A stretch of 64,000 nucleotides of DNA from Antedon mediterranea (lineage: Eukaryota; Echinodermata; Crinoidea; Comatulida; Antedonidae): assembly GCF_964355755.1 (NCBI RefSeq), contig NC_092674.1, forward strand, positions 30,988,001 to 31,052,000, given 5' to 3'. The notes below the pieces were generated by a model, which did not search any database, was not told where the DNA came from, and saw only the letters and a list, made by a program, of their open reading frames with translations. Shown one piece after another: positions 68 to 53,400 of this stretch. The position numbers were made by a program, and so were the translations under genes. Every line of letters starts with the position of its first letter. The stretch's first letter is position 1.

Positions 68-3000
68 ACCTGAAGACATGACAAGAAGCGTTTGGGATTA
101 TATCTTCTTTTCAAATACAAAACTGCCGTCAAAATCCAAGATATCAAAAAAATCACTCAACAAATTACGTCAGGAGTTTCAATACTGGTATCCGGTTGAC
201 CTCCGTGTGTCTGGCAAGGATCTTGTACCAAACCACTTGACGTATTTCCTTTACAATCATTGTGCAATCTGGCCTGACAATCCAGGCCGGTGGCCGCAAT
301 CTATTCGCACCAATGGTCATCTAATGTTAAACAACGAGAAGATGTCCAAATCAACTGGCAACTTCCTTACTCTACAACAAGCGATTGACAAGTTTTCTGC
401 TGATGGTATGTGACTTGACCTTTAACCTCCAGTCCAACATCCCTGGGTTCAGTTATAAATGTATCCGTGTGAGATAATGTCCCAATTGATTGTAAAATCA
501 AAACGTTACAATCAATCAAAGCATTACTGCTCTGAACTAGTTATCCATTCATAGAAGCACAGAAGAAAGGAAGGCTGTTTGTTGGTGACTACTTTAGCTT
601 GACTTCTAAACCTAATCCTCGGTTCAGTTATAACATGCCTAACTGCAAGAAGTTGTGAATTCAATTCTAGACATCTATTTGACAACTATTTTTGTTTTCT
701 TGAAAAACTTATTAAACTTTATATAAGAAAAAATGATGAAATTGATATATTTTGTGCAAAATCCTTTCAGGTATGCGTCTTGCCTTAGCTGATTCTGGTG
801 ACACACCTGTTGAAGATGCCAACTTTGTGGAGAGCATGGCTGATGCCGGTATTCTCCGCCTCTACACGTTCCTCGACTGGGTCAAAGAAATGTTGGAGCT
901 GAAATCAACTCTACGTACTGGACCAATTGATAGTTACAATGATAGAGTCTTTGTACAGGAGATGAATAAAGGAATAATGACAACTGATTCTAACTATGAG
1001 AAGATGTTATTTAAGGAAGCACTTAAGACTGGCTTTTATGAATTCCAGGTGAGGGAGTATGCAAATGACTTGAACCTAATATTATAGATAGATATTGAAC
1101 TTGTTGATAGCAGCTATGTATATGTTCATATTATCACAAACAATTTAAACATTGTATACTGTATTTCTAACAAAACATTTACCATGCATCACAACCTTAA
1201 GCTCCGTCTACTCTATTAAACTAGTTTGACAAAAAAAAGTGTGATGTGCTCAAATATGGTAGTGTTATGATGTCATTAAGTCCACATATGGGCACATAAA
1301 GTTTGATAGTGTAGACAGATCTTTATAATTTTATTGGTTTGGTGGTTATATATAAGGAAATTGCCTTTACTGGTACCAACAGCTAATTGTAGTCCAATTA
1401 TTGAGGCTGTCTTTGAAACCACTGTCCAATTGAGATGTCTTGTGACAGAGCTTTAACTAATAATGTCAGATTTATAGGATTGGTTTTTTTTTCTTCGTAG
1501 GCATCTAGAGATAAATATCGAGAGCTTGCCATGGAAGGTATGCACCACGACCTCATCTTTAGATTCATTGAGATGCAAGCCCTTATTCTGTCTCCCATCT
1601 GTCCTCACCTGTGTGAGCATATATGGGGGCTAATTGGTAAGAAGGGCTCCATAATGAAGGCAAGTTGGCCAACTGTCTCAGAAGTGGATGAGGTCCTAAT
1701 TCGCTCCTCTGAATATCTCATGGATTCGGCTCATGACTTCCGTCTTCGAGTTAAAAATATTGCGCAGCCACAAAAACAGAAGGTAATATACATTAAAAAA
1801 TGGCATATTTTTTTACTTATTTCCATATTTCTTATTATTTATAGGTAAAACTTATGTTTATATCTAAATATAAATCTATAAAAATAAAAAATGTAAAACT
1901 AGTTTTTCTTTTCTAACAGAAAGGCATGCCTCCACCTCAGAAGCCAACTCACGGCACTATATACGTAGCCAAGACGTTTCCTCCATGGCAGAGTACAATC
2001 CTTAGCAAGCTGAAACAGATGTATCAGGTTAGCTTGACACTTGTTTTAAGCTCTGTCTACACTATCAAACTTTATGTGATAAAAAATGTGCCTATATATG
2101 GACATGATGATGTCGTATTACTACCATATTTGGGCATATCACACTTTTTTGACAAGGTAGTTGGATAGTGTAGACAGCGCTCTTGCTTGATTAAAAGCCT
2201 CTTAGTCACATTTTTTACTATCTAGCCTTCTGATAAATTTACTGAATTATTCAATTGTTTCTTTATTGTCTAGGCTAACAATGGAACTTTCCCAGAAAAC
2301 AAAGAAATTGTCAATCAACTGAAGACGATCGATACACTGAAGAAATATATGAAAAAAGTTATGCCATTTGTACAACAAAGCAAGGTAAACTAACTTTACT
2401 GCATTTATTTATCTTTACTACGAAAATAACAGTTGAAAATTAAAATTAGGGAATATAATTGTCCTACAGTATAATAAGAAACTTTTATTTTCTTTTTTAG
2501 GAAAATGTCGCGGTTAATGGGATGAGAGCTCTTGACTTGGAGTTGGATTTTGATGAGAAAAAAGTTCTTGAAGACAATTTGGAGTACTTAACTCAAACTG
2601 TGGATGTAAGATGCTTGGCCTGTATTTTGTTTTCTTGTCTTATTTTCAAGAATTGAAAATACAACCTTAACTCTTGTTATACCCATCACATAAATTTCCC
2701 TTGCTTGTTTTAATATCTAGAATTGTTAATAGTATTAAATTACATTGTATGTGTTACAAATGGTTAATGTTTTTCTTTCTCAGCTTGAAGGATTAGAAGT
2801 GAAATTTTCTGAAGAAGGTGACGCCAAGGTGAAAGAGGAGTGCTGTCCAGGAAAACCATATTCTACGTATTATACTCAGGTGAAAATATAGTTCTTTTGA
2901 TCTCGTAATAATATGGCTTAAGTTTAATTCAGCAACATATCCAAACCAAATGTTGCCTAAGTTTTAAAAACCTGTTAACATTTTTCTGAAATTTTATATT

Positions 3001-5393: not shown

Positions 5394-6821
5394 TTATGTT
5401 CTCCAATGTAGATTATCTGGGAAGGAGAGTTTGATGGCACTCTCCGGGCTGTCGTCATCAAAGTCATCAAACCTAAGTCCAAGCCATTCTGTGGACATCC
5501 CAATAGTTTTAATCTTGTGGGTAACCTTCTCGCTTTCTTTTATAACACGTTTACATAATAACTGTAGTGAAAATGGCTGATTGATATAAACGTCTAATGC
5601 CTCTAGCAGCTTTCTTTCCGTTCGTTTCTGGTTAGTTCGTCTTAAAATTCTTGGTACCCACTCGTTAGGTTTATAACGTAAATTTAATCTGTTCATTGTC
5701 TTTAAAATTTCACAAAGTATATGAACTCTGTTATAACATAAGTACCCCATGTATGAAATAAAAAGTTGGAAAGCCGTCTGACGTTGTCTGTTTGGCAAGT
5801 CGGCGCGCGCGCCTTTCTTGATCAAATAAAGTACAGCGGATGGGTTAGAGTTCCTTGCGGCAATGTGCAGCGGAGTATCCAACATCGAATCCAAGTCGTT
5901 AATGCCTAAATACTTCCCTTGAGTTGATCTAAAAACCATCTTTAAAATATACTGTTTTGTTGCAAAATCTGATCTGTGTATAAATGTGCTGACTGCATGA
6001 TGTAGTATCGTCCTCCTATCCAGTGATCTTGTTAACAGATCACTGCCAGCATTCAAAAGTATTTTAAACATCCGCCCGTTTTCCTTTTTCGCGGCATAAA
6101 ATATCGGGAGCATTCCTTTGTCGTCTGGTGCGTTCACGTCTGCGCCGCGTTTGAGCAAGAGTTTTGAACAGACGATGTTGTCTGCGCTTACGGTAATATG
6201 TAGTGGTGTTACCCCTTGCCGATGATCGTGAATCTCCTTCTTTAATCTGCTACCCTTTCTGAGCTGAAGACGCAATGAACAAGTGGCGCATTTTGATGCA
6301 ATGTTTTCATAGCTTGAACGACCGCAAGGAAGAAAACCAACCGTTGTGTATTTCTTATCCATTTTCTTGTGATTCAGACGTTTTCCACGCTGTGTAAGAT
6401 TCAATTCATCTCCATATTTCAGAAATAACTCCAAGATGTTTTGTTTTCCGTGAGCAGCTGCGCACATCAAGCCAGACGTCCAAGATAATGTCAGCAGCCG
6501 GGTGGTGACCTCATCCTTGTGAAAGGAAACAATCACAAGATCTTTAAGAACTTGCTCCACGAAGTCAACGTTCATTTTGGGAATTTCATTCTTTAGTAAC
6601 TGAATTGACCTGAACAGTAACTCGTGGTCAATGGACTTTTTCTTAATGAGACTGGTATAACTGCGACTTTGTTTAACGTCTTGCTGGACATCGGAATCCT
6701 GTGCGTCTTTACTTTCTTCTTCAGCTACGGGAGCAGCAGCCGCCACAACTCCTGCTTTCGCTGCATCGGACTGCTGATGTTGACGTTGTCGTTCAAGTCG
6801 GTTTCCCATTATATTGTCCAC
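5394..6821 (-). CDS. Intronless ankyrin-repeat protein with SOCS-box-like C-terminus
   Basis: One uninterrupted 475-codon frame from MDNIMGNRLE to HWRT-stop. Residues 1-60 are polar and Q/A/E-rich. Ankyrin repeats follow, with good matches at GVTPLHITVSADNIVCSKLL and the next helices (LLKRGADVN), DKGMLPIFYAAKKENGRMFK (LLNAGSD), RRTILHHAV and DTPLHIAARNSNPSAVLYLI (KKGARAD). Residues 418-427, SLQLLCKRVI, fit the elongin-BC box pattern of SOCS boxes (S-L-x3-C-x3-I). An LSFP motif nine residues before the end resembles a degenerate Cul5 box, though it lies farther away than usual. This suggests an ASB-type substrate receptor for a cullin-5 ubiquitin ligase, by inference. It lies tail to tail with LARS1 and head toward 7 kb. 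It could be a retrogene or a lineage-specific single-exon gene; no exact orthologue is recognised. A minus-strand AATAAA at 5319-5324 could end the transcript. Confidence 0.85.
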   Translation of the reverse strand: MDNIMGNRLERQRQHQQSDAAKAGVVAAAAPVAEEESKDAQDSDVQQDVKQSRSYTSLIKKKSIDHELLFRSIQLLKNEIPKMNVDFVEQVLKDLVIVSFHKDEVTTRLLTLSWTSGLMCAAAHGKQNILELFLKYGDELNLTQRGKRLNHKKMDKKYTTVGFLPCGRSSYENIASKCATCSLRLQLRKGSRLKKEIHDHRQGVTPLHITVSADNIVCSKLLLKRGADVNAPDDKGMLPIFYAAKKENGRMFKILLNAGSDLLTRSLDRRTILHHAVSTFIHRSDFATKQYILKMVFRSTQGKYLGINDLDSMLDTPLHIAARNSNPSAVLYLIKKGARADLPNRQRQTAFQLFISYMGYLCYNRVHILCEILKTMNRLNLRYKPNEWVPRILRRTNQKRTERKLLEALDVYINQPFSLQLLCKRVIKESEKVTHKIKTIGMSTEWLGLRFDDFDDDSPESAIKLSFPDNLHWRT

Positions 6822-7108
6822 GTATTTTTTACATTATTAGTTACTTATTTATTTTAATAGTCCCTACAAACCGTACTAAAAACAACCTGGTCGGATGCAT
6901 TGCTGCTAACAATTTCTGTGTGTTGTTTTGTTCAATCTATTATTCGCGCGTTCAAGAACATTGTGTTCGAAAATCACTGGCTCAAGCGCGCGATCTCAGT
7001 TCAGACATGTTTGCGCGCTAAAAAAACATGCTTTTAAAGAACTTAAAAGTGGTTATAGGACTTATAGGAGGCAGTATGCGAAGACACGGGTTATAGTCTG
7101 ACTTTTGA

Positions 7109-11800: not shown

Positions 11801-14800
11801 GGAAATGGATCTTTTCCTGGTGACCTGTGTAAGAAATCGTATTTTATTCAGTACATAAAACTTGATGACATTAACAAAACTAATGACATAAACAACTCTT
11901 TATATGCAAATCACTAATGAGTTGCATACCAAATATGGTGCTTACCAAATATGGTGCTTACCAAATATGGTGCTTACCAAATATGGTGCTTACCAAATAT
12001 GGTGCTTACCAAATATGGTGCTTACCAAATATATGGTGCTTACCAAATATGGTGCTTACCTAATATGGTGCTTACCTAATATGGTGCTTACCTAATATAG
12101 TGCTTACCTAATAAGTAAAATGTAGGTTCATCCAAGGAATCCTCCAGACCACCTTTTGGTAAATCAAAAACATTAATTCTGCAGTTTTCACCGGCAACCA
12201 CGAGTCGGCAGTTATTGAATGGATCCCAACGGAAGTCTTGAATCATGCTTTTGTTGTGCACTGCAGGAATCTCACTTTCTGGTTGTCTTCCAGGCTTGTC
12301 AAGCTGTATGAAATATAACACAAATCACTTCAGATTCTGCACAGTACTTCCTTTCATCACACAAAATTGACAATTCTGGGATCAAGCCCTGTTTTAATGG
12401 CTCCTATGGCATTATTTTTAACTGTTTCACTGTTTAAGAACCTAAATTCCTGTATATCAATGAAAAAAAAATGGTACTCACCTCAAATACACCAATCTGA
12501 CCACCAGGTCCAGCAAAGGGAACAGCAGCCCTTGCAATATTGGCATGAAACCCATCACATTCACCGAAAATGATGTTACCCATATTACGAATGTTTGTAA
12601 TGTATGTTGAAGCATGCCGATGTGAACCTTTCGCATGCCGGAACTTTGAAGACTTCGCTGCTACAAATGTCTTGCCGGACGATTTCCTAACCATGCCTGA
12701 TTCGCCACTAGCTGCTGCACCTTGAAGATTTGGCTTGTTGTCTGGGACGACTGAATTAGGTGTTAAGTTTTGATTTACAGGTGGTTTGTTTGCAGGAATA
12801 GATGGATTTGTTTCAGGTGCTGAAGAACTTTCACTCTAAAATTAATATTTATTCATATATAAATCTTGTATCTGTATAATTAACAAAATAAAACAACAAA
12901 CGTTAAATCATTATGAAACTACAAACCTTTACGTCTACTGATGTTGAATCGGATCCACCTTGTGTCTTTGTACTTTTAATCACTGATTGACGTTTAGAAG
13001 GATCCAATGAAATTTTAGCAACCTGTATATAGAAATAGAGTAATTATTACAGTTCTAAATATTAGTATATATATATATATATAGTATTTTGTGTACATAG
13101 CATCCAAGAAAGTGATTGATACAGTGAGTGAGAACAACATTTACTTACTTCTTTGTTCTGGCCATCAAACCATTCATCTACTGTCATGGCCGACACGTTT
13201 CCAGGTGTGTCTGGGAAAAGTTCACTTGCAAATTCTCGATGTGACTAAAAATAAAAAACACCAAAATCAGAATAAAAAAACAAATTACGAATTTGTTTAA
13301 TTATAATATAGTATACGTATTCTATGATAAATATCAAGTAAAAACTAACCCTACGAGGGACTTCGTATGATAATGGTAGAATTGCATTCTGGGTAAGCTG
13401 CAGTAGACGATTGACTTCACAAGATATGACATTTAGCGCCCTCTTTGGTACCATTGCAATACCTCTTTGCTGAGCAGTTCCCATGTAGGTGGCATCTATT
13501 TGTTGGAACAAGAAAAGCAATTATACAAAGCATTTAATTAACAATATTATACTACATTAAATATTTTATAAAGCGTCAAAGTTTAAGTTACAAAATGTCT
13601 GATTATACATACTGCTTGTAAGGTAAGGCTGTTTATCTGTTACTTCCATGTACAATACTGTAGTTGCACCCTGTAAAACACAACAACAATCTCATCTTGT
13701 ATACAATGTAATGACATAATGATAAATACATTATTAAAAGAGAAAATAGTTTAATATCTCTAACAAAGTAGTCATTTGAAAGTACCAAAAAAATAAATTT
13801 CAAACTTAGAGGCTGCTCAAAAGCACATGCAACTAAATAAATCAATTCTGTTCTTTATAAACAATAATTATTGAATAATAATAATTATAACAAATTACCT
13901 TAGAAGCAACAAATAACATCTTGGTGTCAGGATCATAAAAAGGCATAAGTGCACTGGAAAAACAAAACAAACATTATTAAAAGGCATAAGTGCACTGGAA
14001 AAACAAAACAAACATTATTATATTATTATTGTTTCTCTCACAACTTTATCTTAGTATTTGTATTTCCAGTATCAACTGGTATTTAATGATGAAAGTGCTT
14101 ATTCTGTCTATCAATATGATTTTATACACTATACTGTACCTTGTAGCAGTTCCTAGGCTTTGACTCGCCAGACTGCAACCTAAATTCCGTGGATCCCAGA
14201 TGCATAGTTCACTTTGTCTTCCCTGAGTGGAAAAGAAAATTTAATTTAGTAAATTATAAATTCAAATCTAATTAATGAATCTACTATTTCTGGCTGGCTT
14301 ACACAACACAAAACAATTTTTGACCAAAAAAATAACAGAGAAAATTGGAATAAAATGGTGAAAAGCGTCATGTCGCAAAACGACGTAACTCATGATCTGA
14401 CTGGCTGTCTAATAAATAAACGTATTTCAATAAAGATTAGTTACATACCGCATCAAAACCACTGGACAACAGAAGATCTTCATTGCCAAGCCAACAGACC
14501 TTGGAATCTTTATGGTTGTTATGTCCACCAGTTACCTATAATACAAAATTAAAAACAAATATGTAAAAAACAAAGAATAACTCAACAATTTAAAACCATA
14601 TAATTGATTCCTAAATGCTGCAAGAAATATTGAAAACCATACTGCAATGGAATACTAGATGAGTGATTCTTTACCGGTGGGCTGTTGCTAGGGTTTCTAG
14701 GATCCCAAATCTTGATTGTCTTATCTTTGCTGGTAGATGCCAGAAGGGAGCCATCTTGTTTCCAGCTAATGCCAAGAAGCTGATCATTGTGTGCTTCCCA

Positions 14801-16175
14801 TGCTTCATTAAACAAACATAAAAATACAGTTAATAATAAATAATATTTATTGGTTACTCTCCTTTAAAATGGAGGAACACTCTTGTAACAAAAGGTTTGA
14901 CACATACAAAATATACACATAGTTAAAATATAAATACAGATACAAAATGTATAATATTATGAACCTTTTTTTAGCGATAATGAAGGAAGTATTGAAATAT
15001 TTTTGCTACAAAATCAATGTTTTACCAAGTTTTTCCTGTCCAGTTGAAACATCCCAAATCTGTATTGATTTAAACACAGTAGAAGCCAGAATATTTTCAG
15101 CAGCAGGGTGGAAGAGAACTGTTTCTATTCGCCTTTCTTGCATTGGTAGTGTAAGGAAAGCATTGGTTATATCTTCTGTCAAGCCACCCTCTGGTAGATC
15201 CCAAAGTTTAATCTGAGGAGAAAACAAACATTGGTTTTGGTATACACATAGAAATATAGGATTAAAGTACATCTTTTGAACAGTATATAATGATATTGAG
15301 AAATGGGGATTATGAGAAATATTTACAGTAGTCTAGAGCTATCAATGCTTGGTTGTTACAAACAGCATAATAATTTTGTTTTGCCAATTAATACTATATC
15401 GCCTGATGGTGGCAGTGTAGTACTAAGCACTTACTGAACAATCTTGAGAACAGGTAGCCAGTAGGTAATCATTGAACGGTGAGAAGTCCATGTCAGTGAC
15501 CAAGTCCGAGTGAGCTTTAAGGCACGGCAAATCATTATTGCTACGACCACAGAAGTCAATGGGAAGTATGCAAATATTACAACCAGCTAAAAGAGAAAAA
15601 CATTAAAAACAAATTAAAATTATATAATTGTATGAAATTTTATCAGAATTAGAAGAAACCTAAATTTACAAATTGAATTGTTGTTTCTTACCTCCACCAC
15701 TGACATTAAAAGCCATGAGGGCGCCACTTGCTTTTATTTGGTTGCCACACGACTGGAATGCACCAATTTTGAGGTCCGAAATACAATTCTGCAGAAGAAA
15801 AGAAGAATTAAATTTATGTTACAAGTCTAGCCTAAAACAATTTGAGGGAGATCTCCACTTGTTACTCAAAATAAAATTTTGGCAAGTATGGTAGGGCTAC
15901 TTGCTTCATTTGTTTACAAAGAAAAAATCGGTTCATTAATAACTTCTCAAAAAAAATACAAATTTGTATATTTATGGGCCAAAATATCAACATAAGCCCT
16001 CTGTGGTAATATTTTGCCAAATACTTCACTCAGTTTCTGAGTGCTTTCATTTTATGGTTTGTGTGTGGGGAAGCCTTTCTTGCAAACTTGCTAAAACAAA
16101 GTACAGGTCGTTCACCTCTTTCTTTGGTTGCTTTGCTTGTGCATTCTTGTACTTTGATGTCTTGAATCGATTCAT
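8863..16175 (-). CDS. CORO7: Coronin-7 (tandem-coronin WD40 protein), complete, 24 coding exons
   Basis: Long coronin with two beta-propellers; family members act in Golgi trafficking and actin control. Coding exons in transcript order: 16116-16175, 15692-15788, 15435-15586, 15026-15212, 14675-14802, 14449-14535, 14140-14222, 13899-13953, 13613-13670, 13350-13495, 13149-13244, 12927-13022, 12482-12835, 12108-12303, 11682-11824, 11383-11487, 11149-11234, 10438-10576, 10244-10333, 9978-10094, 9536-9671, 9310-9401, 9117-9206, 8863-8871. They sum to 2,802 nt, exactly 934 codons with the stop (human protein about 925 aa). The protein begins MNRFKTSKYKN. Propeller one spans about residues 1-385 (IKLWDLPEGG at 104) and a polar linker follows. 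A second coronin signature, SKFRHAKG, is near residue 478, then propeller two. The acidic tail ends GVDDDEWDD, as in vertebrate CORO7. All junctions are GT-AG. Several splice sites are duplicated (see findings). Confidence 0.95.
10564..10697. repeat. 69-bp tandem duplication over the CORO7 exon 18 acceptor
   Basis: Two near-identical copies start at 10564 and 10633 (ACGTTGGCCATTACTGTAAA onward). The first includes the last exon bases and the real 3' splice site (exon edge 10576). The second puts a decoy acceptor 69 bases upstream in the intron; reading from the decoy meets a stop codon. Confidence 0.9.
11925..12107 (-). repeat. 16-bp array repeating a CORO7 5' splice site eleven times
   Basis: On the transcript strand the unit is GTAAGCACCATATTTG, repeated eleven times (one unit has two extra bases), and begins exactly at the donor of exon 14 (edge 12108). 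Each unit is a good donor (G|GTAAGC). The first three units carry ATTAG instead of ATTTG, matching the exon end. Using any downstream copy would add 16n bases and soon reach a stop (frame ...GKHYIR-stop). Confidence 0.9.
13940..14018. repeat. 41-bp tandem duplication over the CORO7 exon 8 acceptor
   Basis: The sequence starting AAGGCATAAGTGCACTGGAA at 13940 repeats at 13981. The first copy carries the exon 8 start and its acceptor (edge 13953). The second is intronic and holds a decoy acceptor 41 bases upstream, whose use would shift the frame. Confidence 0.9.
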
Positions 16176-16893
16176 GGTGTATTTTAAATCTTTCTCTTGA
16201 TCATTGAATCTGTAATAGTAAATACAAATATAAAATCTATATTAAAGAATTCAATAAAGTAAAGAGATCATGTGGATTGTGGGTAAATTGGGTCTTGCAG
16301 TAATTGAAATTACTAGTCCAACACAACAAGAAGTCTCTAAAAAATATTTCCACTAAGGGACCTTCATTCAGTACTACTACTACTAGGCTAGCTAGCTAAC
16401 GTAGTATTGCATTTTGAAATGCTATTAATGTCTCACAGTGTAGAAACGCATTAGTTCAAACAAATTATGCACCCAGACAAGCATACACCTATTACTATAT
16501 TTAGTACTATTAATGACAATATGCTGACTGCAGCTGCAGCATGCATGTGACAATGCCAGACACAGTACACAGTGGCAGTGCCTCCTCCTACTCTACCTAC
16601 AGCCACAGACAGTACACATTCAACAGCTGTGTGACTTACAATATCAAGTTTATTTCTAAGAATTGTGAGAATATATGCTGACTTACAGGTAAATTAAGCA
16701 GTTACTTAGCAATTCAAAACAACCGATCAGCTGGCAAAAGATTTGACAGTTTAAATAATAAACACACCACTTTTATAAACACAAAAAGTTCTTGAAAAGA
16801 TAAACACGGAAGTAGGTACCGCCCTCTTTTTCTTGACACGACGCCGGTGTTTGTGGAGGTCAATGGTTGGGAAGTCAAGCGTGAAAAATGAAA
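16176..16893. promoter_or_regulatory. Shared divergent promoter region of CORO7 and DNAJA3
   Basis: The two ATGs face away from each other 718 bases apart. A minus-strand acceptor at 16210-16211 shows that CORO7 has an upstream 5' UTR exon. Donor-like sites at about 16636 and 16684 would end it, leaving its start within about 200 bases of the DNAJA3 ATG. ACGGAAGT (16806-16813) is an ETS/GABP-type site, and AAAATGGCAGC over the DNAJA3 start resembles a YY1 site. Both kinds are common in mitochondrial-protein gene promoters. Start sites are inferred. Confidence 0.5.
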
Positions 16894-19800
16894 ATGGCAG
16901 CCACGAGGGTTGCATGGAGAAATTTGCAAAAAGTTTCTCGATCAAAATGTACACTTTCATCAGAGGAATTGGCAACTAACGTTGTCTGTAAACGTTATTT
17001 AAAAACATTTCCAAATTATACAAATAGCATTTTATTAAATCGACTTTCTAATGTTGCAATATATAAAGGATTACTGTGTAAGTTTTAAAAACATGATTGA
17101 TCAGGACACGCTAAGGCCTAGCCTAGCTAGCTAGTACTAGGCCTAGGCCTGTAGCCTAGCCACTCTCTCTCTCCCCGCAGTAGGCATCTACCATAATAGC
17201 TAGGACTATTATAACCTAAGCCCTGCCAGGCCTAGATAGATTAGGCCTATAAACTAAGCTTAGGCCCTGGCTCAGGTTAGTTCTACACTAATTTTTAGTA
17301 GCTAGCTAGGCCTAGGCCTACTAGTAGTAATACAACAAGAACAGACATGCCTATTTATAAATAAAGTATAATTTATTTGTAATTAATATGCCAAAACAAA
17401 TGTCCATCTAGGCCTAGGCCCTCTAGTATCTGCATTACGGTCGCTGGGTAAATTGGCCATGATGATTGATTTTATTATGATTTATGATATCGGTTGCATT
17501 TATTTTGGTTGCGATAAAATCAATTTCCTTTGAAGTGTCCCCTACCTATTACTACTACTATGATGCATAATATATGCTTTTTTGAAATTTTTTTTTTTAA
17601 TAATTGTATATAATATATATAAGTATTCTACAGTGAATTAAATGATAATTTTGTGTTTTACAGCACCAAGTAGTTCATATCACCTAATAGATCGGAATTT
17701 TCACACTTCACAACATTTAGAATCAAAAGATTATTACAGAATCCTTGGTGTGCCAAAAAACGCATCAACGAAGGAAATCAAGAAAGCGTATTATGAGGTT
17801 CGTAAGACTAGGATCAGATGTTAGCATTGGAATGACACTTATCAATTTGATTGCAGACGACTATAACTACTAAACATTGAGCACTAATACTCTTTTCACA
17901 TCTGCAAAATGTAACAGGAGATCAAACCTGGCAGGGGCAGATTTAGGGGTCCGGCCCCCCCTTTTGTAATATATATATTATTGTTCCATTTACATACGAT
18001 TTTATCAACGATTTTACAGGAAAGGGGGTACAAATCAACATTAAAAATCGTTAAAATCAATTTTTTTTCAAGTTGAACAGAGTTCAACTTCAACGTTACG
18101 ATCGGTAAAACTGACTGACCAATCAAATAGTTCATAAATTACGTCATCATTGTTTGTGACAATTCTTATTTTTTACAACGCGACAATGTTTTTTGTACTC
18201 TTTTAAAAAAGTCTGATATTTCAAAATAACAAGTGTAAGTAAAACTAAATTTTAATATAAAAACAATTAAATTTAATGTTATCTTTAGTGTAAAGACTAT
18301 ATTAAGATATCAGCGAAAACATGTCCTAGGCCGGCTGGGTTGAAGCATTAAAACCTGTAACTTTTTCAATTTTCACACGGGCCCGGCTGCACGTGACCGG
18401 CCTTGGCTTTGCAAAACTTCACATCCATGTGTCCCAGCAACGTCGAAAGAACCAAGAAAAAAACGATCGGGTAAAAAATATGTAAAAATTTGCGACGGAA
18501 AAACATGCTTTAGGCGCAAAAAAAACAGTTCCGTATATTAAATATAGTCTATAAAACCCACTATATTCAGATATAAAACCCACTATATTCAGATAATTCT
18601 ATGAGAAGAATCGAATGGCCTAAACGCCTCAGATGCTATCTCTGGGGGTCAGGGAAAATAATTTTCCCATATCGGTCCCCTCTTTATCAAAATCCTAGAT
18701 CCGCCCCTGCCTGGTTACACCTTGTTGCAAGTTGGAACAATTTATGCAGGTGTGAAAAGGGCATAAAAGCATCCAATACTATACACTACACTTATCCCCA
18801 AAACATTGCCACCCAAACCGCTAAATTCCATAATTTGAATGACCACATGAGATCTCCCACTAGTTGCAATTTCTGCTGATTGCTTTGAATGACCACATGA
18901 GATCTCCCATTAGTTGCAATTTCTGCTGATTGCTTTGGATTATATCCTGAAAGTTATCATTTACTCTACTAGGTCCAAACACTAAAAGTATAAATTGATC
19001 AATTGATTTTATTTCATTCACTTTATTTGAAACAGTCTAGGAAAAAAAACAAGCATACATTTACAATAAGTTAAAAGGTAACAATAATAGGACCTGTTTC
19101 AGGGATCGGAAATAGAAGTAAAAGAACTTGTCTAATACCAACCCACTAAACAGAAAAAAGACAAACAAACTGCTGCATGACATATCATTTGCTAATAATA
19201 AATAATAATTTGTCAATGATTTATATAGCTTGCCAAGAAGTACCACCCTGATAAGAACAAAGGAGACCAGAGTGCATCTACAAAGTTTGCAGAAGTAGCT
19301 GAAGCATATGAGGTATGAATTAATTTTGAGATCTTGTAAAACTTAAGCCTTGTCTACACTATCAAACTTTATGTGAAAACAAAATGTGGTTTTCCCATGG
19401 ACATAATGATGTCACATCACTACCATATTTGAGCATATCACTACCATATTTGGGCATCACATCACACTTTTTTGTCAAACTAGTTTGATAGTGTAGACAG
19501 CTTTGTAGTTGAAACATTGTGTAATATTTATTTTTTTATATTCTCACTGCATTAATGACAGTAAAACAAACTGATCTGATAACATTTTTCTTTGCACAGA
19601 TATTAGGAGATAAATTAAAGAGACAGGAATATGATACCATGGGGACGACAGGATTTGGAGGAGCAGGAGGCGCCGGTGGTGGATTCCAAGGCTGGCAGCA
19701 AGCTGGTACCATAGACCCAGAGGAATTATTTCGTACAGTGTTTGGTGGCAAAGGTGGCTTTAATAATATCTTTGAGGGAGCTGGTTTTGGTGGTGGCATG

Positions 19801-22800
19801 GACAACACAAGAGAGGTGAGATGCAAAAACATTATAGATTGTATTTACCAACTTGGATGTTATTGATCTGAGACATGAATGAAGAGACATGAATGAGGAA
19901 ACATAGGTGGAAAATGGCAAAAGGCTTCCTACTTTCTAGGAGTTTTTTCAGATAATCTATGTTGTTTTGAACAATTCTTGTAACATGACCACAGTGCTGA
20001 TTTTGCAAAACTGATTTATAAAAAAATCCATAGTGTCTAGACAAACTGTGTAGTAGTTTTAAGTTTGATGGGAAAATACAGTATCACAGGCATAACCACT
20101 AAAGTTTTAAGTAAGTTAGCTTTATATTTGATCATTACATGAAAAATGAAAGACTTACGAAATACAGAGTACATACAGCATAGCCTCTGTTGACTTAATT
20201 GATTAATGACACATGTTTAAGTAACTTAGCTTTATCACATTTACCATCATTAGTATTCACTTCTTGTTTTGATCTTTGTCTACTTAAGTACATGATGGAT
20301 TTGACGTTTAGTGAGGCAGCCCGAGGTGTCAACAAAGACATGGAAATTGTCATAGATGATACATGTCCACGATGTCATGGGGCAAAAGCTGAACCGGGGA
20401 CAAAGACGTCGCAGTGTCATCGCTGTCAGGGATCCGGCATGGTATGTTTGTGTGGATTATGAACTAGTTTGCTCAGGGACAGGGTAATCATCTCTCACAG
20501 CCATGTGGTTAGGAGTTTAAATCCACAGCCATTTATTTGATTTGTGTTATAATGTGAATAATCATTTCAGCTGTTATGTATAAATTTGTATTACATATTC
20601 TTACAAAGACTTCAGCCTAATTATTAAAAATAGAAAGTACTTAAAGTTAAATTTGTTATTTTATTTAGGAAACAATCAACACAGGTCCATTTATGATGCG
20701 TTCTACATGTCGGCAGTGCAGAGGTCAAGGTTCAATCATCAGTGTTCCTTGTATTATGTGTAAAGCGACAGGCCAGACAATGCAACGCAAGAAAGTAGTT
20801 GTTCCCATACCAGCAGGTATGATAAACCAAATAAAGTTATATTTTTTGTAAAACTATACTTTTAGAAATCAAGGATTAATTTTTTTTTTACATAATGTAT
20901 TAAACCTGACATATTAAACATAATTAATTCTAGTGGTGCCTGTATCCTCTCTGGGCTGGCGGGATTTCGCTGTATTGCCTTTGTGGGTTCTCCTGAACAG
21001 ACGTCCTTGTAGTTGGTTTTTGTTCTCTCTTGTACCTTTTACAATAAATATTCTTGCTTATTATAGGAGGTATCAATTTCTTTAAATTTCATATTTTACA
21101 GGTGTGGAAAATGGTCAAACTGTTAGGTTACCTGTGGGTAGTCGCGAAGTGTTCATCACATTTCGTGTCGCTCGTAGCAGTACATTTAGAAGAGATGGAG
21201 CAGACGTGCATTCGGATGTCGCGGTGACGTACACACAAGCATCTCTAGGGGGCAGTCTCCGTATAAAAGGAATATATGATAGTATTCACTTAAATGTAAG
21301 TACTATTGAATGTACTACTCATTTTATTGCCAGATTTAGTTCCTCTTCCAAAATAATTAGGGTACACTTTCAGGAGTGAACAATGGGCCCTCTTGATAAG
21401 GTGTCCACTGAGGGGTGGGGGGGGGGGGGTGGCTATACCCTTGATAGAAACTAATAAATGTTGAATTATTATTATTATTAATAAAGGATATATTGCCACA
21501 GTCAGGTCACAGGAAAGTTCCTTTTTGATAGTGGTGACCCAAAGAGGAGTTCTAATGTATCTATATAAATTATTATATTGTGGAAATTTAAGATTAAATC
21601 TTGCATTTTATTCATACAGATACCAGCTGGCACACAGTCACATGCTAGGATACGATTACCAGGCAAGGGAATTCAACGTGTAAATGGCTACGGCAATGGG
21701 GACCACTTTGTACATGTGAAAATCAAAGTACCCACGTAAGTACACTTGCTCAGAAAGGGGGCTTTTGTATTTAAATGTCCTACCAAATATTATCATTATC
21801 ATTACCTATGATTTAGTTGAACAAGTTTACAAACGTCATAGCACATCATATTCAACTTATTCACTCATTAGATGCTTGTCTAGATTTCAGTATTTTCAAC
21901 TAAAATAACAATCCTTCAAAATAGACACTAGAAAAAAAATTAGTGTGTATTTTCACTTAGGTAGAACGAAAAGCACAAGGGCGACTTGTTTATGATATTG
22001 AGGATGTTTAAAAACATTCTTAGCCTTATGTCTGTAAAAAAGATTTTTGCAACAGAAACAAAAGGAATAGAAAATAAACTGAATGGTTTCATCAGGTCAA
22101 TGACCTGTATCAATATTTTTATTATCGGTTGAAATCTGTTAAATCGAGCAATTTTTTTGGAAGTTAGCAGCTGATATTTTTCTTAAACCTGAAGATGGAC
22201 AAGTAGTCGCCCATTAGTGTAAGTCCATCTTTTAAAAAATTAGTTTGTTTATCAAAATGATGATTTAACTGGAATTATTTTAAATTACTAGTTAATAAAG
22301 TGCATTCCAGATTGGTTTTGCCTTGGTTAATTAATTAATTTATTTGTTATTGCAATTGGTCAGAATTTCTCAAGTGGTTTTTGTGTCCAATTAGAGTAGA
22401 TTGAGATTACTCTGCTAGAATAGAACGCATTATTATAATTGGTATTTTTAAACATAGAATTTATTCCATTATCATAATTGATAATTTGACATTAGAATAT
22501 CGTCCATTAATGTAAGTGATAGCTGTGTATGTAGAGTCTAGTATCTTTAGTTATTCTTAGATATAAAGAATTAGAATTATGCCTTTTTAACTTGGGTGTA
22601 GTCCACGTTTACAGTCATGTACAGTTATAATTTGTATAAATTGCCAGATTTTGCCAAATTATTATTATTAGTTTGAGAATTCCTTGTAATCTTTTAGAAC
22701 CTTTCACAGAATGTTATTTTTAAGTTTGTTATTTTTCTTAATGATTGACAGAACACTTACTGATAAACAACAAGGGCTTTTACTTTCCTTGGCTGAACAG

Positions 22801-23118
22801 GAGGAGGATGTTGTAGGAACCGTAAATGGTGTCAGCCAAACACAAAGTGGTAAGTATGCTTGACTTTATGACCTTTGACCGCATTCTAAAGGAAGATAAA
22901 TGTTCGAATTGAAAAATTGGGAAAATCCAAAATCAAATCGTTGAAATGTGTATAAATTTACTTAAAATTGACAAATTTTAGAAAATGTTTAAATGTTTGA
23001 AAAAAATGAATTTACAGGGCACACCTCTGAAGATGTTCATTTCGATGAAGAAGAAGAGGTTGAAAAAAAGCCTGGATTTTTGGAGAGGTTGGCCAACAGG
23101 GTATTTGGACGAAATTGA
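16894..23118 (+). CDS. DNAJA3: DnaJ homolog subfamily A member 3, mitochondrial (Tid1), ten exons
   Basis: Mitochondrial Hsp40 that delivers clients to mortalin and stimulates its ATPase. Exons: 16894-17077, 17664-17797, 19229-19312, 19600-19815, 20289-20441, 20669-20816, 21102-21295, 21620-21735, 22752-22849, 23018-23118. Total 1,428 nt = 475 aa plus stop (human about 480). I chose ATG 16894 (MAATRVAW) over 16888 because it matches the family start and a YY1-like context. Residues 1-80 are basic and suit a mitochondrial presequence (RNFHTSQ). J domain is about 84-149 with HPD at 112-114. A Gly/Phe region follows ([12 protein letters not shown]). The zinc region from 232 has four C-x2-C pairs ([32 protein letters not shown]); the first and fourth deviate slightly from C-x2-C-x-G-x-G. 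The C-terminal substrate-binding domain includes [20 protein letters not shown]. The tail is acidic then basic ([20 protein letters not shown]). Confidence 0.95.
17100..17430. repeat. CTAG/TAGGCCT-rich simple sequence in DNAJA3 intron 1
   Basis: Many copies of TAGGCCTAG, CTAGCTAG and AGGCCTAGGCC in about 300 bases. No regular period; probably a degenerate low-complexity repeat. Confidence 0.55.
17932..18709. mobile_element. Non-autonomous DNA transposon with CAGGGGC termini (DNAJA3 intron 2)
   Basis: The left end is CAGGGGCAGATTTAGG and the right end is the inverse, CCTAGATCCGCCCCTG. Identical 5-bp direct repeats CCTGG flank it at 17927-17931 and 18710-18714. Internal sequence (778 bp total) has no transposase frame. 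CAG-type ends suggest a hAT-like element, but the 5-bp target duplication is shorter than the usual 8, so the superfamily is uncertain. Confidence 0.7.
18838..18937. repeat. 50-bp tandem duplication
   Basis: GAATGACCACATGAGATCTC and the following 30 bases occur twice, at 18838 and 18888, with one substitution. In DNAJA3 intron 2. Confidence 0.85.
19347..19504. mobile_element. MITE copy 4 of the main family (DNAJA3 intron 3)
   Basis: Left AAGCCTTGTCTACACTATCA and right TTTGATAGTGTAGACAGCTT. The interior has two CCATATTTG-type segments and TGATGTCACATCACTACC. Confidence 0.8.
20930..21066. mobile_element. Possible retroelement tail in DNAJA3 intron 6
   Basis: A locally GC-richer block (CTGGGCTGGCGGGATTTCGC ... 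ACAGACGTCCTTGTAG) ending TTTTACAATAAATATTC. It looks like a LINE 3' UTR end but has no coding part; weak evidence. Confidence 0.3.
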
Positions 23119-23336
23119 TTTGAGGTAGGCTAGCTTGGCCCTTAGTTACCAAATTCATTGTACAGTAATTTGCCTACCTGAAGAATCTCATGTCCATTAT
23201 TAGTTGGCCAATCTCATAACATACACTGATATCATTTTAACCAGGGGTTTACCAGCAACTTTCTCTAAATATGTTTTATGACCTCACACACATCCTCCTA
23301 AACATTTTTTCATATATTCTCGTTTTTATTGCATAG

Positions 23337-23674
23337 GTAAAAGAATTGCAGTTGATGATGCAAGCGGAATAGTTCATGGTATACGCTACATCTTAGATAA
23401 CCCAAACCCTACCAGTACAGATCCACAAGACAACCCTACCAGTACAGATCCACAAGACAACCCTACCAGTAGAGATCCACATGACAACACTATCAGTAGA
23501 GATCCACATGACAACACTATCAGTAAAGACACCATAGAAACATCCTCCAATACAGATGATACACCTAGTGATGAGGGAAACAAAGGGGCAGATGAGGGCA
23601 ACAAAGGGGCAAAGAAAGTGGCAGATGACATCCAAGACCAAGAAGATGACACTAAACAAGAGGATAGAACCTGA
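23337..23674 (+). CDS. DNAJA3: Alternative last exon of DNAJA3 with minisatellite-encoded acidic tail
   Basis: It follows an acceptor (TTTTTATTGCATAG) and is open for 111 codons. Exon 9 ends in phase 1 (AGTG); joined directly to this exon it reads SG-KRIAVDDASGIVHGIRYILD, in frame. Exon 10 also ends in a donor-like GAG|GTAGGC at about 23124, so this exon could instead be 3' UTR of the main form. The tail is hydrophilic and D/N/T-rich. Five 9-residue repeats (DNPTSTDPQ type) come from a 27-bp tandem repeat at about 23400-23528. The human short isoform, as I recall it, replaces the same C-terminus with a peptide starting KR after SG, supporting homology of the splice choice. Expression is inferred. 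Confidence 0.6.
23400..23528. repeat. 27-bp coding minisatellite (about five units)
   Basis: Unit AACCCTACCAGTACAGATCC plus ACAAGAC, drifting to AACACTATCAGTAGAGATCC plus ACATGAC. The 27-bp period preserves the reading frame of the alternative DNAJA3 exon. Confidence 0.85.
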
Positions 23675-24017
23675 AATAGGATTTCTTCATAAATATGGGG
23701 AAAAATTTATTGCAAAAATAAGTAATTCATTTTATTAAGAAAAATGGGCTGATATGTGTGGATTTTGATATTTTTATGACATTTCAATAATGTTTCTTAA
23801 ATATGACTATATTACCACATTTTATTATTTGTGATGGCTTCACACAGACAGAACCTCACAAACCATCTCCAAACTTGGTAAATATTTGGTTTTTATTTTG
23901 TTAGTTGGTAAAAGAAGGCTACAGACTAAATAGCGTTGCCGTCTGCGCACAGTAGTATATATGTTGCAGTCGTACATGGTAAACATACATATGCATAGCA
24001 AAAATAAGTAAAATTAA

Positions 24018-24023
24018 ATAAAG
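24018..24023 (+). terminator. Possible DNAJA3 poly(A) signal
   Basis: First clear AATAAA on the plus strand after the alternative last exon. A second lies near 24272. Motif and position only. Confidence 0.3.
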
Positions 24024-24380
24024 CAGGTCCTATAATAAACCAAATTATAAAATGTGACACATCTGGGTATATTAATATGTATGAAAACGAGTCATGAGTT
24101 GATAACCTACATTGCACCTTGTATTGCCAACATTCATTAAACAGATATTTTTAGTTTGCTTATACGATGTGACCCAATTTATAATAAAATTGCAATGGTG
24201 TTTCCAACTAGAACTATCGTCTTGTTATAATAATATTAATATAAAAAAGTTATGACAATGTATAAACTAATTTAATAAACTTTTATGTAAGTAATGTTTA
24301 CTTTTGTTTTCAAAGCTCACAAATTTTGGTTTAAAAACTAAATCCTTTGTTTTTTCCCAAATAAGGTAATATCAATATCA

Positions 24381-47286: not shown

Positions 47287-47778
47287 GTAAGTTTACAGCA
47301 TCATTTTGCCATCTCGGTCATATGTCAATTCATTTAATTCTCAAACAGAAACAAAATTGACAGTCATGTATAAGTTATCATAGAATTTATCTACATTTTT
47401 ATTAATTTGATGTTTTATTTGCTCTTTTCGAAGCAAAGCCATTACACAAGACTCGTAGTTATCGTGTTCAGAATGTTATTGCCGATAAAAACGATGTTAA
47501 ATTTTTCAACGACCTCTGATGAAATTGACGTTTTATGTCATTTAAATATCTTTAGAGTATTTTACTTTGTTTCTTGATAAATTCAAATAATTTATTAAGG
47601 GTTGTGGCTTACATAACTAATATATAACAGCACACTTTAAAATTTATGTAGCAAGTTAGAATATTCCTTTATCCTTTTTTAAATGAAATTTGAAGATGTT
47701 ACCATTTTAAAACAGTAAAATTGTTTACTTAATTTACTCTTTCAATTTTACAAGTTATTCTAACTATATTATTATTAT

Positions 47779-48185
47779 TGTTTACTTTCTGCCAATCAGA
47801 GACATTCTTTCATATCATTCATGTTTACTTTCTGCCAATCAGAGACATTCTTTCATATCATTCATGTTTACTTTCTGCCAATCAGAAACATTGTTTCACA
47901 TCATTCATGTTTACTTTCTGCTAATCAGAGACATTCTTTCATATCATTCATGTTTACTTTCTGCCAATCAGAAACATTGTTTCACATCATTCATGTTTAC
48001 TTTCTGCCAATCAGAAACATTGTTTCATATCATTCATGTTTACTTTCTGCCAATCAGAGACATTGTTTCATATCATTCATGTTTACTTTCTGCCAATCAG
48101 AGACTGTTTCATATTATTCATGTTTACTTTCTGCCAATCAGAGACATTGTTTCATATCATTCAGTTTACATTCTGCCAATCAAGA
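47779..48185. repeat. 43-bp tandem array, about nine units
   Basis: Unit TTTACTTTCTGCCAATCAGA plus GACATTGTTTCATATCATTC plus ATG, with small changes and one 5-bp deletion. Three frames are open because 43-bp units lack stops, not because it codes. Confidence 0.95.
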
Positions 48186-51100
48186 ACATTGTTACAAATA
48201 AAGCATGATTTAGAATTAATTTTGGACTGCATAACATTTAGAAAGCTGAACGTTGATTATAAGGTCACTGACTTCCATCTAATCTCGTCAATTCATCTTA
48301 AAATGATGAGATGTGTATGATAGCTTCCTTTACCATCTTTGTGAATATTGCTATTTTCCCCTGGGTATATTTTACGTCCATTTAAGGTAGATACTGTCAT
48401 CTTCCGCGTCCATTAGTACAAAAAAATGGTTACATTGCCCTTCAAATTTCCGTTGAGATGAAAGAAATTCTAGAAACAATTTTAATCGGTCCTAAAGAAA
48501 TCTCAATATTGATCACTCTTTAAAAAATAATTAACACCACAATTTATTACCAAATAGCTTATGAATATTCATAATATAACTATTTAAAACAACTTTTTGA
48601 TCTCAATTTGAAATTGAATACAAGATTTAAATAAGTTGCATCGGGACTAAAAACTAGTTATGTGAGCTAAGAAAGGAATTTAAAGAAATTTCAGTGAAAT
48701 TTTGTTTTCAGAAATACATTGTACACTGTCAAACAGCAATATTTTATTTATTAATTGTACAATTAAAAATAATTTTAAAGACTTAAAAAGCTTAAAGCTT
48801 TCTTTAGAAATATTAGCAACTGTGTTCAAAAGATATTTTTATTACAGAAACAATGTATAATTATTTCTAGGTTAGGGACACATATATTTCTTATTTAAAT
48901 AACACATTATTTATTTATTGAATAAATATAAGTTCTCATGTTTACCTGCAAGACTAATTTATGTAGAGCTTTGCCGGAATCCATTTATTTCTGATGTAAT
49001 AACGACAACGTAGTACCAAACAAAGAACATCTCACGGGAGACGTCATAAAGTACAGAAAACAAAGTCCGAAATGTAATGTACGCAATTTTATTCAATGCT
49101 AATCTATGTACAACAACGATGCATATTGCGATAGACCTGCTTGTAAGCTCCTAATTTACAACCACCAGGAGTGATAGTAGCACAATGTTACATTATACGC
49201 AGTTTACAAAATAATTCAGTATCATAATGGATTGCGTGTTCCTAATATTTAATATAAATTAAATTATGAATTTTAATTCATCATGGTAATACGTTGCTTT
49301 GTCATATGTAAACAAATTATTTATACCTCACAATTCAATGTAGTAAAAAATATTAATAGTAAAAGCTTTATATTTAGATGCCATGATTAATATGTATTTA
49401 TATAATGGGAATGAATGGGTTTTTAGGGTGCTTAATAGTTGTGCAAGTATCCATGATCATGTTTTTTTAAATGTTTTTTATTTTATTTAACCAGATCCAA
49501 CAACGATAATTACCACCACTTACAGGTTTGAAACATAAAACAATAAAACATCAAAAACAATTAATAAACAAATACAATAGTTTCTGAATACTTATATTTA
49601 ATATAAATTGTTTGTAGTGCTTTAAAATCTGATTTCAACCAGCACTACCCTGGAGAAAGGTGACCAATCATTTAGCCCCTGGATCTTCTATTTGATGCCC
49701 CGTCTTTGTTTCTAGTTTCTAATTCAAACCATTGTGTTGAAAATCATTCCATTTCCACCTTGTACAGTGTCTGTGAATGCGTTTTAATTATCTCCGTCCT
49801 TTATTTCTAATTTCCCACAGGTCATATTTTAATTAAAGACCCAATGTCTTGTATTTACTTAGTAATAATGCACACATTAGTATTGTCTTTGTTTTGTAAA
49901 AGAGAATGAAATTTGATTTTACCTTGTTGACTCCGACATATGTTCATTTCATAGTTAATTCATTTTCAATAACCCACGAATAGATTGTAATACTCTTAGG
50001 GATTTGTGTATTCCTCATGGTTGTCAGATTTAGGTTGAGGTTGGGGTAAAATTGATGGTAATTATTTGGGATTAATTGTATCATATACAACTCAACTCAT
50101 GTGTATGTACTGAACTTTATCCTGTATAAAGATCAAAATAATAGTCTGTAAAAAAGTGTAAGTTTTCTTCCTATGTCTTTGCATGTCTTCTATGCATCTC
50201 AGATCTTATAACAAGTAACATAAATAAAATAAAAAATGTTGTGGGTTTGTAAAATTAAAAATAATATAATTAATAAATCTAAAATTGTCATGGTAATATT
50301 AAATAATGCCAGATAATTAAAAATAATACAATTAAAAAATGTGACTTTTTTAAAAACTGCCTGATGGATAAAAATAATGAAGGCAGCAGAGGTCCAAGAA
50401 AAAGAATGTGGGTCTGTAGAGGACCTATTTCAAATTTCCAATTTCCAGTTAAGCTTGAGGACCAGAATTAATACCTTTACTTTTTGACCACAGCACTCTT
50501 TGCAAAGATAATGATTTTCTTTTCTGTTAATCTTTATACCATGTTGTTAACACTACGCATAATTTATTTTCAACATACTACTACTATTCACAATACATTA
50601 TATGAATATACTAAAAGTTGAGCTTTCATTCAAACAAATTATCAACTATTGTAATGAATCAAATATAGTTACAGTGAGTCATCATTGTAAACTGCTATAA
50701 TGCTGTTCTCCAATGTTTTATAGTCTTTTTAACAGCTTGTGTACAATATATATATGACGTATGTCATAACATATTTCAGTTTGTATATAGTATATTCATT
50801 CTAGCGAGAATAAATAACTAAATCAAGAAATATATTCGAATAAAGTCATTATATACACATTATAAAGCATGAAGTGTAATGTGATTGTAGCATTAGTAGT
50901 ATTTTTTAAACATAGGTTAGGAATATCCAAACCGGAATTCCGATTTTTACCAATTGCTTGATATTTTAATAATTGGTCTTTAAAGCTCTGAAAAAATTGT
51001 TTAAATTAACAAATTTTATTAATATTTCTTCAATCATCACTATGCAATTTGTCACAAACCTAAACTCTAATCTTCTAAAATTCAAACATTTAGAACAATT

Positions 51101-51500: not shown

Positions 51501-51680
51501 TATTTATATTAAACCTAAACCAAGATGATGGATTAATAAACACAAAACATTAATCGGTACTCATGCAATAATGTTACATTTCCTGAATTTCTTATGTTTC
51601 TCATTAGTAAATGTAATAATATGATTATTATTTTGATATTAGCTGCAACTGTTCTCTTTAGTATGTATATCCCATTCTAC

Positions 51681-52205
51681 ATACAATAGGAATATGATAG
51701 GAATACAATAGGAATACAATAGGAATACAATAGGAATACAATAGGAATACATTAGGAATACGATAGGAATACGATAGGAATACGATAGGAATACGATAGG
51801 AATACGATAGGAATACGATAGGAATACGATAGGAATACGATAGGAATACGATAGGAATACGATAGGAATACGATAGGAATACGATAGGAATACGATAGGA
51901 ATACGATAGGAATACGATAGGAATACGATAGGAATACGATAGGAATACGATAGGAATACGATAGGAATACGATAGGAATACAATAGGAATACAATAGGAA
52001 TACAATAGGAATACATTAGGAATACGATAGGAATACGATAGGAATACGATAGGAATACGATAGGAATACGATAGGAATACGATAGGAATACGATAGGAAT
52101 ACGATAGGAATACGATAGGAATACGATAGGAATACGATATGAATACAATAGGAATACAATAGGAATACAATAAGAATACAATAGGAATACAATAGGAATA
52201 CATTA
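51681..52205. repeat. 11-bp satellite, about 48 units
   Basis: Unit GGAATACGATA. Outer and central units read AATACAATAGG, and single AATACATTAGG units at about 51747 and 52012 mark two similar blocks. The minus-strand frames (repeating Y/S/R/I/P/V/F/L) are artefacts of an 11-bp period. Confidence 0.95.
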
Positions 52206-53400
52206 TAAATATTTGTCTGTACGTGTATGTTTTATTATTCGGTTTTTGTATTTTAAAAACGTACCAGGATTACCTCAATAAAGCTAAAAAGAGGTTATTT
52301 CCAATGGGTCCTTTTTAACAATTTTAAGCAATTAAATTTAATAGAATAAAATAGAAAAAAACATTGAGAAATTTAAATGTTATGGTTTACATTATTTTTA
52401 CTAGTAGTACTCATTTCCAGGTTGAATCTTTATCGCATGTACATACACTCAGTCATTTAAATTTGCACATACACTCAGTCATTTAAATTTCAGTAATAGT
52501 GTCACTGTTTTTGGCTGTTATTTATTTTGTTAGTAACATGTTTGCTTCGTAACGTAGATTAAACTGGAGTTTTGTTTCGTGCTCATTTTTTTTTATATTT
52601 TCATTACTATATTTAAACAATTTCAATTTCTTTTTCTTTTGATTGCCGATATGAAAAGATAATTAATTAGCATAACTGTTCAGGATAGACATGTACAGTA
52701 ACTATATATAAAACATATAGTAACATATAGGCCATTTATGATTTATATGTTATCATAAATGCCATCATCTTTAAAAATATCTCTTCTGTTCTCTTTTATC
52801 TTTGCTTCCGTTTGTTCTGTTTCGTGTCGTACCATCAAATTTTATTTATGGATAAAGTCAACTTTGCCAAAATAGGTCACCGTTGTCACCTCATGTTCAG
52901 TTTGTGATGTCACTCAATGTATATCCCATGTTCGCTCTACATATTCCTTAATTATTCATATTTACTCAAGTGTGCTACTTCAATCATTGTTCTGTTTTTT
53001 TTAATAAAATTTATCTTTAAACTGTAAAATAAAGTTAATGAAATGTAATTTTCAGAAAGCTTATTTCACAGACTTTTAGTGCATGTTAATTACAGACTCA
53101 TTTGTCTTGCCTTAATTAGTTTTTTCTTGTTTATCCCCAGGCAGCATCATTTAGACGTTGATATCATTTAATCCCCTTTTATTGTTTTACCCCACATTTC
53201 TTGATACTCCATATTTTGAAGCAATTATCTGGTGCTAATAAATTCCGAACCATCCGTCTTTATTTCATCTAACCCCTAAAGGGCTAATGTAATTGCGTAT
53301 ATAAAATAGAAATTTTTAGTTATATAAACTGCAACTAATTCTTTTCCCTTCTACAATTTGGTTATTTAAGCAGTAGCACACAATATATGGATGCAAAGGC
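52206..53400. other. Non-coding stretch
   Basis: Only a small direct repeat, ACATACACTCAGTCATTTAAATT twice near 52441-52490, was noticed. Confidence 0.4.

Follow-up and report, generated by a model that had tools for sequence, protein, structure and literature searches.

The human mitochondrial chaperone Tid1 (DNAJA3) is known in forms that differ at their C-termini; statements on published Tid isoforms, here and below, follow excerpts of the papers cited. Tid1-L contains all 12 exons, and Tid1-S arises when exon 10 is joined to exon 12 and exon 11 is skipped (PMC4941349). The two tails have been printed as GGSTMDSSAGSKARREAGEDEEGFLSKLKKMFTS for Tid1-L and GKRSTGN for Tid1-S (PMC9297570), KRSTGN being named as residues 448-453, and a peptide of these six S-specific residues is reported to act in cells (PMC10940384). 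The two human forms are reported to differ in their partners and to have partly opposing effects, in apoptosis, in cancers and in relation to frataxin (PMC9297570, PMC10940384). From the honeybee, two isoforms, AccTid-L and AccTid-S, of 520 and 489 amino acids, have been isolated, which are identical over their first 457 residues and differ at their C-termini (PMC9813389). Here we describe the DNAJA3 gene of Antedon mediterranea, contained in the window analysed (positions 30988001-31052000, 64 kb, of contig NC_092674.1 in a 354-Mb, 18-contig genome), in which exon 9 can be joined in frame to either of two downstream exons, one encoding a standard tail and the other an alternative tail of 111 residues.

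Two possible endings downstream of DNAJA3 exon 9

The original prediction held that exon 9 ends in phase 1, that joining it to exon 10 gives the usual tail, and that joining it to position 23337 gives SG-KR and 111 residues in frame. Re-derivation of coordinates and phase places exon 9 at 22752-22849, followed by GTAAGT, and the spliced translations agree with both joinings. Spliced to 23018, exon 9 yields ...TQSG-HTSED..., a product of 475 amino acids with a tail of 32 residues. Spliced to 23337, where the acceptor context ...TTTATTGCATAG is directly followed by GTAAAAG, it remains in frame and yields ...TQSG-KRIAVDD..., with 111 residues past SG and 554 amino acids in all. Retention of intron 9 would yield merely SG-KYA. 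The stop of exon 10 lies 6 bases before the donor of that exon. The elements of the gene are as follows.

16894-17077, plus strand: DNAJA3 exon 1, with the start codon at 16894 and a second in-frame ATG at 16888; placed by frame and donor GTAAGT
17664-17797, plus strand: DNAJA3 exon 2, in which the J domain begins; placed by splice sites
19229-19312, plus strand: DNAJA3 exon 3, with the HPD motif
19600-19815, plus strand: DNAJA3 exon 4, Gly-rich region
20289-20441, plus strand: DNAJA3 exon 5, zinc-finger region; partial match to Pfam PF00684, under the cut-off for the exon alone
20669-20816, plus strand: DNAJA3 exon 6; the spliced protein matches human DNAJA3 2ctt
21102-21295, plus strand: DNAJA3 exon 7, placed by reading frame
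21620-21735, plus strand: DNAJA3 exon 8
22752-22849, plus strand: DNAJA3 exon 9, the last shared exon, ending in phase 1 (AGT G) with donor GTG/GTAAGT
23018-23124, plus strand: exon 10, putative cassette with the standard tail, stop TGA at 23116-23118, donor GAG/GTAGGC
23337-23674, plus strand: exon 11, coding part only, with the 111-residue alternative tail (codons 23339-23671, stop 23672-23674)
23405-23529, plus strand: 27-nt tandem repeat of 4.6 copies (NPTSTDPQD...), in frame in exon 11
23570-23611, plus strand: 21-nt tandem duplication (DEGNKGA twice), in frame in exon 11
24017-24279, plus strand: the first AATAAA signals 3' of DNAJA3 (24017, 24034, 24183, 24274)

The gene lies on the plus strand, and its exons 1-10, from 16894, encode the 475-residue protein. 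The J domain of the spliced protein matches that of human DNAJA3 (2dn9, E 4.2e-26) and contains the HPD motif (KKYHPDKN, encoded by exon 3), the cysteine-rich zinc region shares 56 identical residues out of 91 with human DNAJA3 2ctt (E 9e-35), and the N-terminus, where a mitochondrial presequence would lie, is basic on inspection of the translated sequence. All eight cysteines of the zinc-finger repeats (20289-20816) are kept, and two of the four CXXCXGXG repeats differ at a glycine.

Frames of this kind are rarely opened. Among the 69 AG dinucleotides in 23125-24300, only the one before 23337 is followed by an open frame of 111 codons or more in the phase left by exon 9; over the whole window, both strands taken together, such a frame follows 32 of 6729 AGs, 23 of them inside one ankyrin frame (5394-6833). 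G-K-R follows in phase after just four of the 6729 AGs, and of these four only 23337 opens at least 30 codons. Shuffling the bases of exon 11 leaves its frame open in 0.2% of 20,000 trials.

The branch resembles that of human Tid1-S: in both species the two readings part after ...SG, the exon that would be skipped carries the standard tail and the alternative peptide starts with KR, which directly follows the shared SG (SG-KRIAV in Antedon, GKRSTGN in human). The KR-starting peptide that the original prediction gave for the human short form is borne out, as Tid1-S ends in GKRSTGN through the joining of exons 10 and 12 (PMC9297570, PMC4941349, PMC10940384). The parallel drawn there with the human short form holds for the branch point, the exon layout and KR, but not for the word short, since the alternative form of Antedon would be the longer one (554 vs 475 amino acids): the unique tails of Antedon, alternative against standard, measure 111 and 32 residues, compared with 6 and 33 in human. 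Because the junction point and the first two residues are the same and the exon layout is similar, a splice choice shared with human Tid1-S is supported, and exon 11 may be the homologue of human exon 12. The stop of the human long form, we infer, lies in exon 11 of the human gene.

Several observations weigh against this kinship. GKR is the sole part in common with the human peptide; the whole hexapeptide KRSTGN with its stop is absent from Antedon, where KR alone is kept at the head of 111 residues; 4146 of 5000 shuffled versions of the exon 11 peptide match KRSTGN as well as the peptide itself does; and another account of the human gene lets TID-L consist of exons 1 to 11, without the twelfth, and names the exon 10-to-12 form TID-I (PMC11201664). 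An alternative tail that is real and translated yet independent of human Tid1-S, with GKR and the cassette layout arrived at by convergence, would fit both the agreement of just two residues after the shared SG and the outcome of the shuffles. We nevertheless consider convergence unlikely, given that human and Antedon have the same branch point after SG, with a skipped exon and then a last exon, and that so few AGs in the window are followed by GKR in phase.

Coding signal and composition of exon 11

To score coding potential, we derived codon log-odds from a coding set, DNAJA3 exons 1-9 plus the ankyrin frame, and a background set, the DNAJA3 introns and 23675-46000, presumed non-coding. Read in frame, exon 11 scores 0.53 per codon over its 111 codons, where 5000 background windows reach 0.26 at most, and its reverse strand scores negatively. 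With the repeats collapsed (71 codons) the score is again 0.53, a value reached by none of 5000 background windows; the 47 codons past the long repeat attain 0.70, likewise unequalled in 5000 windows, with 0.36 and 0.51 in the other frames, and a model trained solely on the ankyrin frame returns 0.49, vs a background maximum of 0.27. The guanine-cytosine content of exon 11 (0.43) equals that of the coding sequence, with 0.26 in intron 9, 0.35 in intron 10 and 0.30 downstream, and the 108 background windows with a content of at least 0.40 reach at most 0.25. Because its in-frame score exceeds that of every background window, translation of the exon 11 frame in some transcript is probable, and joining to exon 9 would be the simplest route to it.

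Two features of the same scores point the other way. The first 22 codons of exon 11 are, on their own, less striking (0.41, with 31 of 5000 windows as good; other frames 0.07 and -0.07), and the other two forward frames of the exon, at 0.27 and 0.29, slightly exceed the background maximum, so composition contributes to the signal. If exon 11 served only as 3' untranslated region (UTR) behind exon 10, its in-frame opening and KR start being accidental, this share of composition would be accounted for; the exon 10 donor, 6 bases past the stop, would make exon 11 UTR in that transcript, and the skipping of exon 10 is itself a prediction from the sequence. A purely untranslated role seems to us quite improbable, however, since the in-frame score lies above 5000 of 5000 background windows and the reverse strand is negative, since just one of the 69 nearby AGs leads into an in-phase frame of 111 codons or more, and since both repeat periods (27 and 21) are divisible by three.

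The encoded peptide has an isoelectric point of 4.2, a net charge of -15 and a single aromatic residue, and is disordered by the charge-hydropathy rule, its first 22 residues falling on the folded side. AlphaFold2 run without an alignment returned a mean predicted local distance difference test score of 56 and a predicted template modelling score of 0.11, which fits disorder and is weak evidence for a lone sequence. The tail contains 4.6 copies of a nine-residue repeat and a seven-residue duplication, both of which preserve the frame (27 and 21 nt), and in its simplest history would have grown through tandem duplications that a disordered tail tolerated. Also to be counted against a constrained peptide, all four codon differences between successive full repeat copies change the residue, so purifying selection inside the repeats is not indicated. 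Single searches found no relatives of the peptide in Pfam or the PDB up to E 1, no second copy in the genome, where the one match was the peptide itself, and no confirmed occurrence among the 16 pattern stretches returned from viral contigs.

As an observation, the alternative tail exon is confirmed in its coordinates, frame, splice sites and coding signal. DNAJA3 of Antedon probably has a Tid1-S-type isoform, its alternative tail now a repeat-bearing, acidic and disordered peptide.

Splice sites, a proposed mechanism and neighbouring genes

We scored splice sites with a matrix built from the eight other introns of DNAJA3, a small set whose own sites are bound to obtain high scores. The donor of exon 9 is strong at 9.9, a value surpassed by 0.18% of 1623 background GTs, and the exon 10 donor (7.6; 1.3% of background GTs higher) and the exon 11 acceptor (6.3; 4.3% of 1359 background AGs higher) are moderate. 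The exon 10 acceptor is the weakest of the gene, at -1.1, with 43.7% of the 1359 background AGs scoring higher and a pyrimidine content of 36% vs 50-77% at the other DNAJA3 acceptors. Because this acceptor is very weak, the site strengths form the pattern that would be expected of a skippable exon 10. On the opposite side, the exon 11 acceptor scores below all eight training acceptors (8.9-16.5, themselves high by construction). Enrichment of hnRNP A1-like TAGG sites was tried and set aside: introns 9 and 10, 380 bases taken together, contain one site, which overlaps the donor of exon 10, vs 3.2 per kb in the background. A motif scan found no AATAAA or ATTAAA starting between 22850 and 24012, hence none in intron 10; transcripts that include exon 10 should therefore also run into exon 11.

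We note that a donor-like GTAAAAG sits right behind the exon 11 acceptor (23337), such that the AG/GT could double as a two-step splice site. That AG/GTAAAAG at 23337 is instead a splicing element, a 3' site plus donor-like sequence in the manner of recursive splicing, with KR as its by-product, would explain why GTAAAA straight behind the AG looks like a donor and why retention of intron 9 gives SG-KYA, but is very unlikely given that the coding signal runs on for 111 codons and that no further downstream exon is known, though none was searched for.

We think it likely that a cassette exon 10 and a common last exon 11 account for the two endings of DNAJA3, a reading in which junction use, homology with human exon 12 and function are predicted. 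With exon 10 kept, its stop would end the protein with the standard tail and exon 11 would be 3' UTR. The last junction follows this stop after 6 bases, and a stop so near the last junction would not be expected to trigger nonsense-mediated decay. If exon 10 is skipped, exon 9 would be spliced through its strong donor to exon 11, and translation would continue in frame into the acidic, disordered tail of 111 residues. Through the weak acceptor of exon 10, the choice may be open to regulation. Skipping would remove the standard tail, whose human counterpart retains the C-terminal peptide of bacterial DnaJ, and would thereby probably alter chaperone partners or residence, as reported for human Tid1.

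The genome was also searched for a retrocopy showing the junction. The DNA search gave one match, the gene itself, and the protein search gave 18, of which 10 lie in the DNAJA3 gene and 8 elsewhere, at 36-61% identity, and are taken for other J proteins; a miss in either search does not show absence.

Elsewhere in the window, a coronin gene (12437-15818, minus strand), apparently a two-unit coronin-7, lies head to head with DNAJA3 (from 16894, plus strand), as judged from DUF1899 at 12437-12835 and from a second coronin-like exon set that visual reading places at about 14050-15820. In human, CORO7 and DNAJA3 likewise lie head to head, on 16p13.3, and the arrangement would then be an ancient case of microsynteny, perhaps with a promoter region in common. 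The ankyrin-repeat open frame that served as training sequence for coding potential spans 479 codons (5394-6833, minus strand). Open frames at 746-1848 (plus strand), one with the tRNA-ligase anticodon-binding domain PF08264, presumably resemble cytosolic leucyl-tRNA synthetase. Finally, repetitive sequence in which two or more frames are open simultaneously is found at 11900-12090, 47711-48208 and 51639-52269 (TKYGAYQIWCLPNMV, CLLSANQRHSFISFMFTFCQSE and SYRIPIVFLSY types).

The standard tail, bacterial DnaJ and the known Tid isoforms

The standard tail was compared with the C-termini of bacterial DnaJ proteins, using 31 loci assigned to the Alphaproteobacteria by record title. These are L083 and L084, genes that also bear the labels L059 and L031, together with L085-L113, from the 29 best-scoring further genomes among 58 searched, 56 of which gave a match. 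By regular expression, a peptide of the GFFAKVKELW type is found at the end of all 31 loci. A looser hydrophobic pattern, chosen after the tails had been seen and replacing a first expression that matched 29 of 77, occurs in 27 of the 31 tails, with 0.9 expected on shuffled tails, and in 60 of 78 complete frames (2.6 expected) from 80 genome-contig loci, largely Sulfurimonas and kin. Human Tid1-L fits well: its GFLSKLKKMF is equalled against the alphaproteobacterial profile by 1 of 20000 shuffles, and against the single tail of L083 by none of 5000. Exon 10 of Antedon has GFLERL near its end, in the manner of the bacterial GFF.KVKELW type, and matches the loose hydrophobic pattern, which the last 22 residues of the exon 11 peptide do not.

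Other comparisons with these tails are less favourable. As a direct relative of the bacterial tail by its own sequence, exon 10 was rejected, 1993 of 20000 shuffles fitting the profile as well and 84 of 5000 matching L083 as well, neither significant; its likeness to the human tail is marginal (260 of 5000 shuffles as good); and the peptide of exon 11 has a best profile match, KGAKKVADDI, that 677 of 20000 shuffles equal, which lacks the FF core and is 13 residues away from the C-terminus. It is plausible that the standard DNAJA3 tail was inherited from a bacterial ancestor, the trace being clear in human and faint in Antedon.

One might go further and suppose that the choice of tail is a switch of long standing in animals, and that what has been conserved in its function is the removal of the bacterially derived tail, not the content of its replacement. 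The layout and the G-KR entry would then have persisted, while the replacing peptide ranges from 6 residues in human to 111 in Antedon. We put this forward as a tentative possibility and would lean against it, the more so since the fit of exon 10 itself to the bacterial profile is unremarkable. If the splice choice were old and the peptide free to change, work on Tid1-S should weigh the loss of the L tail as well as the gain of KRSTGN.

A great age for the splice choice, as put forward in the original prediction, is in itself plausible. The two shared residues alone carry little weight, and the case is made more likely by the published honeybee isoforms with different C-termini (PMC9813389). 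From the lengths given there, the unique tails of AccTid-L and AccTid-S come to 63 and 32 residues. Because the shorter of these equals the exon 10 tail of Antedon in length, the comparison of lengths suggests that the longer bee form may be the one to carry the alternative tail. Among the matches listed in the literature search, by titles and the starts of abstracts, no paper described a DNAJA3 tail of about this length or the last exon across animal phyla. Since alternative Tid C-termini have been published for both human and honeybee, the ending described here belongs to a kind already known, of which the Antedon tail is a variant, with a length that the human form does not have.

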